In this document: piece by piece, positions 18,001 to 22,307 of the stretch
Layout of the letters: the number at the start of each line of letters is the position of its first letter
How positions within the stretch are numbered: position 1 is the stretch's first letter
Source of the DNA: an uncultured Eubacteriales bacterium
GTDB lineage: Bacteria; Bacillota; Clostridia; Oscillospirales; Oscillospiraceae
DNA length: 22,654 nt
Direction of reading: 5' to 3'
NCBI GenBank assembly: GCA_900313295.1
Contig: OMQS01000128.1
Coordinates: 1 to 22,654, forward strand
The notes under the pieces: model-generated
What the model was told of the DNA's origin: nothing
The model's input: the letters and a program-made list of their open reading frames with translations, nothing else
Databases searched by the model: none
Position numbers and translations under genes: made by a program

Positions 18001-18217
18001 AGAGAATATGACCCGTCTGGAGGAGATCGTGTCCCTGCTGGAGCAGGGCGACGCCCCCTTGAGCGAATCCCTCGCCCTGTTTTCGGAGGGGAGCAAGCTC
18101 CTGTCCGCCTGCCAGAAGGAGCTTGACACCGCCCGCCAAAAGGTGGTCAAGCTCACAAAAGGGCCGGACGGCGCACCGGTCGAGGACGATTTTACATCCG
18201 AGGAGGACTATATATGA
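17981..18217 (+). CDS. xseB: Exodeoxyribonuclease VII small subunit
   Basis: A 78-residue helical protein. The family pattern FEENMTRLEEIVSLLEQGD, then PLSESLALFSEGSKLL and CQKELDTARQKV, is complete. Several XseB copies wrap the coiled-coil stalk of XseA and are needed for activity. The C-terminal tail is acidic. The gene starts inside xseA, after an AGGGGAGAAG site, and its stop overlaps the ATG of ispA, so all three are coupled. Confidence 0.95.
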   Translation: MKKATFEENMTRLEEIVSLLEQGDAPLSESLALFSEGSKLLSACQKELDTARQKVVKLTKGPDGAPVEDDFTSEEDYI

Positions 18218-19086
18218 ATTACGAGGAGCGCTACAGTGCCTACCAGCAAGCCATCGAAGCCTATTTGGAATCCATTTTTTCCGCTGAGGACAAGCCCTAT
18301 GGCCGGCTGCAGGAATCCATCCGCTACAGTCTGCTGGCCGGCGGCAAACGGATCCGTCCCGTGCTGACGCTGGAGTTTGCCCGTCTGGGCGGCATCGACT
18401 GGCATCTGGCCTTACCCTACGCCTGCGCGCTGGAGCTGGTGCATAATTATTCGCTGATCCACTACGACCTGCCTTGCATGGATAACGACGATCTGCGTCG
18501 GGGCAAGCCCACCAATCACAAGGTCTACGGCGAAACGCTGGCGGTGCTGGCGGGCGATGCCATGCAGCCGGAGGCTTTCCGTCTGATCCTGCAGGCTCGC
18601 GGGCTTTCGGCCGACAACCGCATTGAAGCGGCGCTGATTCTGGCCAAAGCCTGCGGCGCCGAGGGCATGGTGGCCGGACAGGTGTTGGACACGCTGTGCC
18701 ATGTTGACAGCGAGGAAGGGCTAACCACGCTCAACCGCCTGAAGACCGGCGTGATGATCTCCGCGGCAGCAGAGTTAGGCTGCGTCGCCTCCAAAATGCC
18801 CATGTACTGGCGGCAGCAGGCCGTGCTGTACGCCGAGCAGATCGGCCTCGCCTTCCAGATCCGCGACGATATGCTGGACGTGATGGGAGATGAAAACGTG
18901 TTCGGCAAGCCCATCGGCTCGGATAAGGACGAAGGCAAGATCACCTATGTGGATCTCAAGGGCTTGGAGGGCTGCGCCGAGGAAGTGGAGAAATGCACCG
19001 CCGCCGCTAAAGAAGCCATTCGCGACATTCCCGACCATGATTTCCTCTGGGAGCTGGCAGACCGCATGGTAGGCCGGAACAAGTAA
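18214..19086 (+). CDS. ispA: Polyprenyl (farnesyl) diphosphate synthase, IspA type
   Basis: A 290-residue short-chain prenyl transferase that joins isopentenyl and allylic diphosphates into geranyl/farnesyl diphosphate, feeding undecaprenyl and quinone lipid synthesis. GGKRIRPV (43-50), RRGKPTNHK, the second aspartate-rich motif DDMLDVMGD (218-226), and KPIGSDKDEGK are present. The first aspartate-rich motif is unusual: it reads HYDLPCMDND (83-92), where family members have HDDLP. The first aspartate is therefore replaced by tyrosine (Tyr84), while Asp85 and Asp90 remain. Activity may still be kept, since the downstream aspartates are intact. The gene overlaps xseB and is followed by a hairpin terminator and then the OLE RNA. 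Confidence 0.93.
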   Translation: MNYEERYSAYQQAIEAYLESIFSAEDKPYGRLQESIRYSLLAGGKRIRPVLTLEFARLGGIDWHLALPYACALELVHNYSLIHYDLPCMDNDDLRRGKPTNHKVYGETLAVLAGDAMQPEAFRLILQARGLSADNRIEAALILAKACGAEGMVAGQVLDTLCHVDSEEGLTTLNRLKTGVMISAAAELGCVASKMPMYWRQQAVLYAEQIGLAFQIRDDMLDVMGDENVFGKPIGSDKDEGKITYVDLKGLEGCAEEVEKCTAAAKEAIRDIPDHDFLWELADRMVGRNK

Positions 19087-19140: not shown

Positions 19141-19161
19141 GTTAGTTTTTGCATAAAACTA

Positions 19162-19190
19162 TTGTATATTTGAATGAAGTGTGATAATAT
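19162..19190 (+). promoter_or_regulatory. Promoter of the OLE RNA gene
   Basis: TTGTAT (19162-19167), 17 bases, then TAATAT (19185-19190) preceded by TGA, an extended -10. An overlapping TGTGATAAT reading is also good. The predicted start, seven to eight bases on, falls at about 19197-19198, exactly where the closing stem of the RNA begins. That agreement supports both calls. Confidence 0.75.
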
Positions 19191-19197
19191 AAGTAAT

Positions 19198-19860
19198 TAC
19201 TGAATGACGGTGCAGTATCCTAGTCAGATCTGCCGTCTTGTAAGAGGGGCCTAAAAATCCCTTAAAGGGCACAACTGTGAAGCCTCTGGTGCTTGCTTCT
19301 TACGCCCAGTTTGGGGTGGGTGCTGGAGGGAGGCGCGGCCAAATACCGCGCCTGCAAGAGTAGGGCGCCTTCCAATGGCATGGAAGACCCGACCCTGCTT
19401 TTGTGGAGACCTGATCTTGTGCGCAGGCGTACTCCCATAGTGGTCAAGCGACCTGTGTACGAATCAGATTGAGAACCTGCAATGCGGTGCTACCCAGCCG
19501 TTTGGCTGCAAACGCTGTGTGCAGAGTAGCCTGCCTTGCGTGGAGCGGGTGGATTAGGGAGCCAAGCGGAAGCGTCCCCGGCCAGGGAAGTTCTCCGATA
19601 TTCCTCTGAAACCCCCTCTGCAAAAGAGGCTAAGAGATGGTCTGACTGCAGTGGAAATCACCTAGGCTGTCCCACAAAGGGCGCCGATGAGGTTGCAGTG
19701 CGGACTAAGTGGCAGTCGGGTATTGCGGCCGGTAACACCGCAGCTCGGGTTTTAATGGGAAACCGCCTGATCGGCAACGAGAGGTAACCCGTGGGGAAAT
19801 CCAACCCGTACCTAAGCCGTAAGATTTATCATCGACGCTGCCGTCATTCAGTACTTTTTT
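19198..19860 (+). ncRNA. ole: OLE RNA (Ornate Large Extremophilic RNA)
   Basis: About 660 bases between ispA and oapA carry no credible protein and look like one large structured RNA. Its ends pair: TACTGAATGACGG (19198-19210) is the exact complement of CCGTCATTCAGTA (19841-19853), a 13-bp closing stem followed by a T-rich tail. Internal hairpins can be seen. AGGCGCGG pairs with CCGCGCCT (19331-19338/19346-19353). An 11-bp helix with two wobbles (19355-19365/19393-19403) encloses CTTCCA/TGGAAG (19369-19374/19381-19386). CCTCT pairs with AGAGG (19615-19619/19625-19629). Size and placement between ispA and oapA-dxs are those of OLE RNA, a class of about 600 bases known from extremophilic and anaerobic Firmicutes (Rfam RF01071). 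In B. halodurans it forms a membrane ribonucleoprotein with OapA, tied to ethanol, cold and magnesium stress. Base-by-base match to the consensus was not possible. Confidence 0.9.
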
Positions 19861-19887: not shown

Positions 19888-20433
19888 TTGGCTGACCACG
19901 ATAAAAGCAAGAAAACAAGGGATCATTGGCCGCTGCGCGTTTTTCTGATCGCAGTTTCTCTCTCCGCCGTAATGAGCTTTTGCTCATCTGCGGCGCTGGA
20001 GGACAGCGGTATATGGATCCCCATTTTGGTTTTGGCTATTTTCATCGCGTTGGGCATCGTGTTCGATATGATCGGCGTGGCCGTCACGGCGGCTGACCCG
20101 AAGCCCTTTCATTCCATGGCGGCTCACGGGGAAAAAGGCGGTCGGGAGGCCATTCGGCTGCTGAACATGTCCAATAAGGTCTCCTCGCTGTGCAATGACG
20201 TGGTGGGCGACATCTGCGGCATCGTCAGCGGCTCCACCGCGGCGGTCATCGTCACGGAGCTGCAGCGCAGCTTTTCCACCACCACGATCCTCATTTCCAT
20301 CGGCACCACGGCGCTTATATCCGGTCTCACCATCGGCGGAAAGGCTCTGTTTAAGCGCGTCGCCATTGAGGACAGCACCAAGGTGGTGTACCGTGTCGCC
20401 CGTATTATGAATGCGTTACATCTGTTCCGCTGA
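19888..20433 (+). CDS. oapA: OLE RNA-associated membrane protein OapA
   Basis: A 181-residue integral membrane protein with four likely helices: about 17-36 (RVFLIAVSLSAVMSFCSSAA), 42-66, 106-124 and 132-152. Conserved-looking parts are FDMIGVAVTAADPKPFHSMA (59-78), where charged residues lie in or near a helix, and NKVSSLCNDVVGDICGIVSG (96-115). Basic residues cluster at the N-terminus, in the loop and in the C-terminal part (KALFKRV, YRVARI), suitable for RNA contact at the membrane. Size, topology and position directly after the RNA and before dxs identify OapA, the protein that anchors OLE RNA to membranes in B. halodurans. The start is TTG at 19888 with GAGGG seven bases upstream. Function here is inferred from the family. 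Confidence 0.9.
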   Translation: MADHDKSKKTRDHWPLRVFLIAVSLSAVMSFCSSAALEDSGIWIPILVLAIFIALGIVFDMIGVAVTAADPKPFHSMAAHGEKGGREAIRLLNMSNKVSSLCNDVVGDICGIVSGSTAAVIVTELQRSFSTTTILISIGTTALISGLTIGGKALFKRVAIEDSTKVVYRVARIMNALHLFR

Positions 20434-20447
20434 CGGAGGAGTTTGCG

Positions 20448-22307
20448 TTGATTTTAGAAAAGATCCGAGATCCGGAAGATATAAAAAAACTGAATGACGA
20501 GCAGGTGGAGCAGCTCTGTCGGGAGCTGCGGGCGTTCCTCATCCGGAGCGTGGCCAAGACCGGCGGACACTTGGCGTCCAATCTGGGCGTGGTGGAGCTG
20601 ACAGTAGCCATCCATCGGGTGTTTGACACGGCCAGGGATCGCCTGGTCTTTGACGTAGGGCACCAGTGCTATTCCCATAAAATATTAACCGGTCGGCAGT
20701 CGCTTTTTCACACTTTGCGGCAGTTGGGCGGTCTTTCCGGCTTTCCGAAGCCTTATGAAAGTGTGCACGATGCCTTTGTGGCCGGCCACGCCTCCAATTC
20801 CGTGTCGGTGGCTCTGGGCATGGCGCACGCCAGAACGCTGCTGGGGCAAAACTACAATGTTTTGGCGCTTATCGGCGACGGAGCCATGACCGGCGGCCTC
20901 AGCTTTGAAGGACTTAATGATGCCGGAGCCTCCGGCGAGCCGATGATCGTCATTCTCAATGACAACGGCATGTCCATCGAGGCGAATGTGGGCGGGCTTA
21001 GCCGCCACCTTTCTCGGATCCGCTCCGAGGAGGGGTATAATAATTTCAAAAAATGGTATAAAGAAAAGCTGCAGGGGGATTCTCCCGCCAAGCAGAATCT
21101 TTATAAGGTCAGCTCTCATGTGAAGCACTGGCTCAAGAGCAATCTGCTGCCGGAGAGCACCATGTTTGAAAAAATGGGCTTTTCCTACATGGGACCTGTG
21201 GACGGCCACGACGTGCAGAAGCTGACGCAGATGCTCACTTGGGCGAAGCAAAAAAACGAGCCGGTACTGCTCCATGTGCTCACGGAGAAGGGCAGGGGCT
21301 ACCCCTTTGCGCAGCAGGAGCCGGAGCGCTTCCACGGCACGCCGCCCTTCGACGCCGCCACCGGAAAGCCTTTGCGGGAGCCGTCCCGTTCGTTCTCCGA
21401 TGCTTTTGGGGAGGAACTGCTTGCTCTGGCCAAGCAGGATGAACGTATCTGTGCCATCACGGCCGCTATGACCTCCGGCACCGGCCTGTCCGCCTTTGCC
21501 AAGGAGCTGCCGAGCCGCTTCTTTGACGTGGGCATTGCGGAGGGGCACGCTGTGGCTATGGCCGGCGGCATGGCCAAGCAGGGTCTGATCCCTGTTTTCG
21601 CCGTGTATTCCAGCTTTCTCCAGCGCGGCTTTGACATGCTCATCCACGACATTTCTCTCGACCGTCTTCACGCCGTTTTCTGCGTAGATCGCGCGGGTCT
21701 TGTGGGGGCAGACGGGCAGACGCATCACGGCTGCTTTGATATAGGTTTCCTGTCGGCCATACCGGACATGGCCGTGCTGTGCCCCGCCAGTTTCAGCGAG
21801 CTGCGAAGTATGCTTCGGTATGCCATTTATAATACAGCAGGCCCTGTCGCCGTTCGATACCCGCGGGGCGGTGAGCAGGCATATACCGCTTGCAGCGATC
21901 CTGTATGCTTTCTGCAGCTGCGCGATGGGACGGATTTTACCATTATATCTTATGGCATTCTGATTAACGAAGCCCTTCGGGCGGCGGAACTGCTGGCAGA
22001 AAAGGGCATTTCCGCCCGTGTCATCAAGCTCAACCGTATTTCTCCCCTGCGGGAGGATGAGGTGGCTCAAATGCTGGGCGGTGCCAAGCGTTTGCTGGTG
22101 CTGGAAGATTGCATTGCCGCCGGCTGTGTGGGCGAAAAAATAGCCTGCCTGGCAGCGCAGACGGGCAGTACGCCGGACAAGCTGCTCCTGAAAAACTGCG
22201 GCGCCCGTCTGCCGAATGAGGGCAGCGTGGAGCAGCTCTATCACGCATTGGGTTTGGATGCCGCCTCGGTGGCCGCATCCATTGAGGAGGTGCTCCATGA
22301 GCAATAA
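20448..22307 (+). CDS. dxs: 1-deoxy-D-xylulose-5-phosphate synthase
   Basis: A 619-residue thiamine-diphosphate enzyme that joins pyruvate and glyceraldehyde-3-phosphate, the first step of the MEP isoprenoid pathway. Visible are GHLASNLGVVELTVAIH, the DVGHQCYSHKILTGR segment, the cofactor motif GDGAMTGG (Asp144) with NDNGMSIEANVGGLSRHL, and in the second half DVGIAEGHAV, DRAGLVGADGQTHHG and RYPRGG. Length is normal. The start is TTG at 20448, seven bases after GGAGGA (20435-20440). With ispA upstream, two isoprenoid genes flank the OLE-OapA pair, as in other OLE-bearing genomes. The 3' end overlaps the next gene. Confidence 0.96.
   Translation: MILEKIRDPEDIKKLNDEQVEQLCRELRAFLIRSVAKTGGHLASNLGVVELTVAIHRVFDTARDRLVFDVGHQCYSHKILTGRQSLFHTLRQLGGLSGFPKPYESVHDAFVAGHASNSVSVALGMAHARTLLGQNYNVLALIGDGAMTGGLSFEGLNDAGASGEPMIVILNDNGMSIEANVGGLSRHLSRIRSEEGYNNFKKWYKEKLQGDSPAKQNLYKVSSHVKHWLKSNLLPESTMFEKMGFSYMGPVDGHDVQKLTQMLTWAKQKNEPVLLHVLTEKGRGYPFAQQEPERFHGTPPFDAATGKPLREPSRSFSDAFGEELLALAKQDERICAITAAMTSGTGLSAFAKELPSRFFDVGIAEGHAVAMAGGMAKQGLIPVFAVYSSFLQRGFDMLIHDISLDRLHAVFCVDRAGLVGADGQTHHGCFDIGFLSAIPDMAVLCPASFSELRSMLRYAIYNTAGPVAVRYPRGGEQAYTACSDPVCFLQLRDGTDFTIISYGILINEALRAAELLAEKGISARVIKLNRISPLREDEVAQMLGGAKRLLVLEDCIAAGCVGEKIACLAAQTGSTPDKLLLKNCGARLPNEGSVEQLYHALGLDAASVAASIEEVLHEQ

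Follow-up and report, generated by a model that had tools for sequence, protein, structure and literature searches.

The window analyzed here is a 22,654-nt stretch of contig OMQS01000128.1 (assembly GCA_900313295.1) from an uncultured Eubacteriales bacterium of the family Oscillospiraceae, and it holds an ispA-like gene, a long noncoding stretch, an oapA-like gene and dxs in this order. The initial annotation had assigned the noncoding stretch between ispA and oapA-dxs to the OLE RNA class, and had proposed a covariance-model search with the Rfam model RF01071. An Rfam cmscan of the whole window returned RF01071 as the single match, at 19191-19860 on the forward strand (410 bits, where the gathering score is 50; E 1.9e-117); it covers positions 1-616 of the 616-position model, and together with the Pfam support for ispA and dxs and the adjacent OapA-like gene it bears out both the class and the genetic context. 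The features of the locus, in window coordinates, are:

18214-19086, forward strand: ispA-like polyprenyl synthetase gene, upstream of OLE (PF00348, E 2.8e-51)
19161-19166, forward strand: weak -35 element ATTGTA, with 2 of 6 positions matching
19180-19188, forward strand: possible extended -10 (TGTGATAAT) upstream of OLE, from a looser scan and short of its 'strong' class
19191-19860, forward strand: OLE RNA (ole gene), full length, by the RF01071 match
19198-19210, forward strand: 5′ arm of the closing stem P1, TACTGAATGACGG, exact 13-bp complement of 19841-19853
19250-19260, forward strand: L4 region CCUAAAAAUCC, loop of the A-A dimer bridge B1, probable placement from the OLE model alignment
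19274-19282, forward strand: J4a/5, likely bulged strand of the kink-turn (A84 C85 - UGU - GA - AG), in H. halodurans numbering drawn from the available text of PMC9723947
19283-19329, forward strand: P5 stem-loop, from the predicted fold and the Rfam alignment
19331-19353, forward strand: clade-specific hairpin filling J5/6, AGGCGCGG - CCAAAUA - CCGCGCCU, 8 bp, by fold, insertion, covariation and occurrence in one clade
19354-19403, forward strand: P6 stem-loop, abutting the hairpin with no free joint in the predicted fold
19403-19410, forward strand: J6/7 GUGGAGAC, non-bulged strand of kink-turn 1b, with a GGAG-type core kept in 87/87 clade members
19580-19583, forward strand: GGCC of loop L9.3, symmetric kissing loop (dimer bridge B3, after the text of PMC12286853)
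19841-19853, forward strand: 3′ arm of P1, CCGTCATTCAGTA, exact complement of the 5′ arm, followed by a U-rich run
19888-20433, forward strand: oapA (OLE-associated membrane protein A, CNNM-like), downstream of OLE, by a Pfam CNNM match
20448-22307, forward strand: dxs, downstream of oapA (PF13292, E 8.4e-115)

Farther upstream of ispA are genes for the exonuclease VII large subunit, NusB and an Asp23-family protein, and spoIIIA sporulation genes, among which the SpoIIIAF match scores under its cut-off. The OapA-coding gene adjoins OLE, and its Pfam score for CNNM (E 1.8e-5, 24.9 bits) is under the 28.4 cut-off. An 83-aa TTG frame (19536-19787) is the only ORF of at least 80 aa lying wholly within OLE, and a protein-coding or read-through reading of 19191-19860 was rejected on the full-length RF01071 match. 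Judged from the sequence, we regard the identification as OLE as practically certain. One OLE match was found in the window genome, a 1.39-Mb assembly that is 77% complete. Of the bacterial RNAs for which no biochemical function is known, OLE RNAs are to our knowledge among the largest.

A sampling of 398 genomes across the phylum showed OLE in 284, and a search of 99 relatives' genomes within the order showed it in 52; both searches used stricter filters, by which weak matches are lost. Within the window's genus, 27/32 genomes (its own included) carry OLE, one each, and the five misses are assemblies at most 81% complete; genomes from other families of the order have it in 20/38 cases. Its distribution in the window's family (f1) is patchy, with 5/29 genomes of the other genera against the 27/32 of the window's genus. 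Most of the best 80 of at least 565 loci of OapA relatives belong to MAGs whose titles name Oscillospiraceae, Oscillibacter or Clostridia, and to judge by these titles a number are of gut or rumen origin. An OLE alignment was obtained for 79 of the 80, although for L045 and L060 it was only a short end fragment. The nearest OapA relative among the matches listed is 93% identical in both OapA and OLE. The initial annotation had called the class described and this representative possibly new, which stands with the qualification that a 93%-identical OLE, from the uncultured Oscillibacter MAG L002, is already public; with such a relative and the many OLE RNAs known (2,822 hits in Bacillota according to the available text of PMC11332333), the class is well known and this member is new but unsurprising. 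The host setting, which had been presented as unusual for the class, is less so, as the same text already records OLE in gut-dwelling anaerobes.

In the remaining locus, L066, no OLE lies within the fetched stretch around oapA. That this might be an OapA without OLE was rejected, since the genome of L066, G492, holds OLE; OapA and OLE are apparently about 5 kb apart on one contig there (assuming that the two contigs are identical), with spacing alone differing, and an 879-aa open frame lies upstream of this oapA. In a search for OLE on mobile DNA, no phage match was found, and the only match in the plasmid collection was L237:11992-12656 of Pusillibacter faecalis NZ_AP023421.1. This 504-kb record is labelled a conjugative plasmid and has dxs, argR, recN and tyrS around OLE; a secondary chromosome or a mislabelled piece of the chromosome seems more likely than a conjugative plasmid.

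For the comparisons below, 201 OLE pieces were reduced to 179 by duplicate removal, in which the short fragments L045 and L060 fell out, and the L066 OLE, lying outside the fetched stretch, was left out of the counts. Kink-turn strands were scored in 167 of the 179, with L021 and L057 being incomplete and ten phylum sequences missed by the regular expression; on rechecking, all ten show both strands. The 87 sequences of the window's clade are 12 from the family and 75 from the OapA search (the "OapA set"), the latter being picked by OapA similarity to the window rather than at random, while the phylum sequences are the top OLE-model scorers plus about one hand-picked per family among the matches listed.

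The exact pairing of the two ends that had been pointed out initially is confirmed at 13/13 positions (19198-19210 with 19841-19853), although the P1 end arms stand unpaired in the Rfam consensus. We scored the best ungapped end duplex in 161 of the 167 sequences (the others being without the 5′ anchor or enough flank), using as controls either a shuffled 5′ arm or 3′ ends swapped among sequences, and the mean score was above both controls in each group: 9.64 vs 5.82 (shuffled) and 6.98 (swapped) in the phylum (n=59), 8.04 vs 4.85 and 5.90 in the OapA set (n=71), 8.18 vs 5.21 and 5.61 in the window's family (n=11, window included), and, weakest, 6.70 vs 5.43 and 6.01 in other families of the order (n=20). 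The predicted fold of the 670-nt RNA has an energy of -281.9 kcal/mol (z -7.06 vs 20 dinucleotide shuffles), and besides the J5/6 hairpin the RNA carries insertions of 15 and 19 nt relative to the Rfam consensus.

Of the 159 OLE loci with enough upstream DNA, 90 have a sigma-70-type -10/-35 pair ahead of the conserved 5′ CGCAGTA, with a minimum of 5 of 6 matches at -10 and of 9 of 12 overall (family 7/11, OapA set 37/69, order 12/20, phylum 34/59), compared with 5 to 10% in base-shuffled controls. The window's OLE, with its extended -10 and poor -35, is not among the 90, and a separate promoter scan of the window found no promoter upstream of OLE. Within the clade, the -10 begins 25-26 nt upstream of CGCAGTA in 32/44 cases, a spacing that would put the transcription start near the base of P1. 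A promoter of OLE's own, if true, would add to the polycistronic transcription known in Halalkalibacterium halodurans, where the text available of PMC12265935 describes the cluster as transcribed into one polycistronic RNA. The U-run after P1 was considered as an intrinsic terminator and rejected: TTTTT follows P1 in only a minority of each group (5/11 in the family, 16/71 in the OapA set, 5/20 in the order and 18/59 in the phylum), so this reading is not general.

The best-studied region of OLE has two mutually exclusive kink-turn models. According to the portions of these papers available to us, Lyon et al. (2022; PMC9723947) placed OapC on a kink-turn formed by J4a/5 and J5/6, the kink-turn seen in the cryo-EM dimer joins J4a/5 and J6/7 (Kretsch et al., 2025; PMC12286853), and Wencker et al. 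(2025; PMC12054373) named them k-turn 1a and 1b, treating both as relevant and bS21 as favoring 1a. OapC binding to the H. halodurans RNA is weakened by U84A and not by U84C in the text of PMC9723947, and 1a therefore fits H. halodurans better than 1b. The P4a region, near J4a/5, is also where OapA binding was mapped (PMC12265935, in the part available). The bases that we scored as the 1a strand (UU-AA-GG after P5) are our reading of the available text of Lyon et al. on the Rfam consensus. A clade whose OLE sequences rule out one model while the OapC gene is kept would be a natural test between the two folds.

What is new here is the predicted hairpin in J5/6, a feature absent from the initial annotation, the class itself being well described. 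The usual J5/6 is a UUAAG strand; in the window J5/6 begins GAGGCGCGG, and the hairpin is largely an insertion relative to the Rfam consensus, so that the predicted fold runs from P5 through the hairpin to P6 and J5/6 keeps a single unpaired base. OLE was found in six genera of the family, and all six have the hairpin (with only four contiguous outer pairs in L098); it is also carried by the OLE RNAs of the cultured Oscillibacter valericigenes (L033) and Pusillibacter faecalis. There are 40 distinct arm pairs among the 87 sequences, and 88.9% of the cells are paired, against 77.1% (sd 1.6, maximum 83.9%, 2000 trials) when the 3′ arms are dealt anew, a shuffle that takes no account of relatedness and in which part of the two outermost columns is held constant by the 3′ anchor motif; the 5′ anchor was moved by one base for sequences starting GAAAG or GAGAG. 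Almost all unpaired cells (29/31) are in the three innermost of the seven columns, where stem lengths differ. In a midpoint-rooted tree of 99 OLE RNAs, for which J5/6 was left out of the alignment and which took in a hand-chosen 19 of the 87 hairpin sequences, the 19 carriers form one clade with a local support of 0.989, and in the clade placed next to them with a weak support of 0.447, 5/6 tips have the 1a strand. The literature text that we searched makes no mention of OLE in Oscillospiraceae/Oscillibacter or of a J5/6 hairpin, though the hairpin may be drawn in a consensus figure. A reading of the inserted hairpin as a new kink-turn (GA ... UGCGGA flanks) was rejected, because the window has UGCAAG instead and many relatives do not keep these flanks either.

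Outside the order, the J5/6 strand of 1a, U(1-2)[AG]AG, is present in 58/60 sequences plus 10/10 rechecked (68/70), falling to 7/20 in other families of the order and 0/87 in the window's clade; these are counts of a strict regular expression, by which L189, L175 and L183 are without 1a, with L189 and L175 holding UAAGG 1-2 bases further on. The J6/7 strand of 1b, [GA]GAG[AG]C, is present in 60/60 plus 10/10 rechecked (70/70) outside the order, in 18/20 in its other families and in 87/87 in the clade, and C85, which both kink-turns require, in all 167/167 scored OLE RNAs. The GGAG that 1b requires opposite C85-NNN-GA is found in the window as part of J6/7. The second C-helix pair of 1b (position 84 with -2n) is kept in 50/60 phylum, 16/18 order and 33/87 clade sequences, and is not formed in the window, where A84 is opposite A. 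Among the phylum sequences that have the 1a strand, 51/58 keep the second pair of 1a. A second change specific to the clade might have been loss of the bS21 site. This was rejected: CCUCC occurs in 0/87 clade members, but in only 12/60 phylum and 0/18 order sequences too, and since the mimic is rare outside the clade its absence does not discriminate.

The OapC (YbxF) candidate of the window genome is an 82-aa frame beside rpsL-rpsG, whose best PDB matches are YbxF (E 2.9e-11) and which scores under the cut-offs of the NCBIfam L7Ae-like models. OapC adjoins rpsL in the best 30 loci of the OapC search (in two of them, at contig ends, rpsL is cut) and in six further genomes checked, and three OapC frames for which the search had indicated an internal stop proved to be open over the whole domain. 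Among the OLE-bearing relatives, OapC was found in 38/52 and not found in 14/52, and it is present in 16/47 relatives without OLE. In the window's genus, 21/27 OLE-bearing genomes have it; in the other genera of the family it occurs in 8/24 OLE-lacking genomes and was not found in 4/5 OLE-bearing ones. OapC also occurs in relatives without OLE, and finding it in the clade is therefore no more than suggestive. The window genome also has a bS21 gene. OapA is the only CNNM match found in this 77%-complete genome, and the same CNNM search found no MpfA there, which is in line with the anticorrelation of OLE and MpfA reported in the text available of PMC11332333. A search of the 77%-complete MAG for OapB, run with no positive control, came back empty, and infA, the neighbor of OapB in the genus, was not found there either; the OapB region is therefore probably missing from the assembly. 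The genus-mate G018 has a frame, flanked by map and infA, that matches PDB 7k9b (OLE-associated protein B, E 1.8e-7).

We compared the RNA with the OLE systems described in the literature, as far as the text available to us covers them. It resembles the full-length RF01071 type (PMC11332333) in the whole consensus, the oapA-dxs-ispA context, the L4 and L9.3 loops, J6/7 and C85, and differs in having the 8-bp hairpin for the UUAAG of J5/6 and the 15- and 19-nt insertions. With the H. halodurans OLE and its k-turn 1a (PMC9723947, PMC12054373) it shares J4a/5 and C85, and the OapC and bS21 genes are present in the window genome; unlike that RNA, it is without the J5/6 partner strand, has A for U at 84, and no CCUCC anti-Shine-Dalgarno mimic was found in its P6. 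The cryo-EM OLE dimer with k-turn 1b, whose source is given as Clostridium acetobutylicum in PMC12286853 and as H. halodurans in PMC12191101, has the J6/7 GUGGAGAC, the L4 A-tract and the GGCC of L9.3 in common with the window, whereas the window has the extra P5-P6 hairpin and leaves the second C-helix pair unformed. OLE variants 1 (TANB77) and 2 (RF39) of PMC11332333 have non-extremophile gut-associated hosts, as here, but they shorten P7-P9 or are without P7 and P8, whereas the window aligns to the whole model, with insertions rather than losses.

By analogy with these systems, the OLE of the window most likely dimerizes, forms a membrane RNP with the adjacent OapA, and takes part in stress responses. 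Bridges B1 and B3 are described in the cryo-EM structure (PMC12286853, available text), and the presence of the corresponding contacts here, the L4 A-tract and the GGCC of L9.3, fits dimer formation; we infer both the dimer and the membrane location from these known OLE RNAs. As read from primary structure and gene content, this is an OLE RNA with a J5/6 hairpin, in which the 1a strand is lost and the 1b strand retained, in a genome with an OapC gene. The explanation that we favor, as probable though well short of assured, is that it is a functional full-length OLE of a clade that cannot form k-turn 1a, and that OapC, if bound, should use 1b. The J4a/5-J6/7 region of the clade would then be without the switch into the J5/6 kink-turn 1a of H. 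halodurans, because the strand that 1a needs is replaced by the covarying hairpin between P5 and P6. OapC, if it binds this OLE, would sit on the J6/7 k-turn 1b, where the sheared-pair strand and the C85-G pair are unchanged, so that which kink-turn OapC reads is here inferred from the strands present. The class role would be carried out in this clade with no P6-to-1a rearrangement.

The hairpin could also be a neutral expansion of a tolerant joint in an ordinary OLE, and so be silent on the choice of kink-turn. J5/6 does vary in other families of the order, two of which have, by eye, unrelated hairpins at the same place (L082/L083 and L187), along with short altered joints; against this, J5/6 is near-invariant outside the order (58/60 plus 10/10), and the clade is missing the 1a strand in 87/87 with compensatory changes in the hairpin, and we consider neutrality unlikely. 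Somewhat less credible to us is that neither kink-turn is used in the clade, OapC having left the OLE complex and kept only another role. Such a departure would suit the 54/87 clade members in which the second C-helix pair of 1b is unformed, as well as the other genera of the family, with OapC in 8/24 OLE-lacking genomes and not found in 4/5 OLE-bearing ones; it would leave unexpected the conservation of C85 and the J6/7 core in 87/87, since a free motif need not be kept, and it sits poorly with the OapC of most OLE-bearing genomes of the genus.

K-turn 1a might still form from the GA-GG that lies partly in the hairpin and partly just 5′ of it, with the hairpin opening on OapC binding. After P5 the window reads GAGG, and G2n-A1n-G(-1n) is possible if two J4a/5 bases are left out, but many clade members have GAAG, which sets A opposite C85, and the hairpin must melt, making this improbable. 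The least plausible reading by far is a decayed, non-functional copy: its 410 bits are under the scores of many other genomes (up to 582.9), yet the RNA is full length and next to oapA, has 93% identity with that of a related MAG, and carries a covarying hairpin.

If the favored reading of a clade restricted to 1b is extended to the class, the OapC/bS21-driven P6/1a switch would not be general to OLE, and 1b would be the more general OapC site, with 1a lineage-specific or secondary. This proposal, which follows from one clade of gut bacteria whose OLE has a hairpin that would block 1a and keeps the 1b strand, we advance tentatively, as one that could well turn out otherwise. Two OLE RNAs of another family in the order, L191 and L194, have neither the 1a nor the 1b strand by the regular expression, so 1b is not universal either. 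Because the clade has lost the 1a strand, retained OapC, and includes the cultured O. valericigenes and P. faecalis, the question is directly testable.

The L191 and L194 OLE RNAs (family f6) are long and divergent, at 718 and 784 nt; the GGAG strand of J6/7 was not found in either, and a group II intron match lies just downstream of the L194 OLE. At J4a/5 (19272-19279), the palindrome CAUCGAUG, common elsewhere, is replaced by CAACUGUG in the window and in many clade members.
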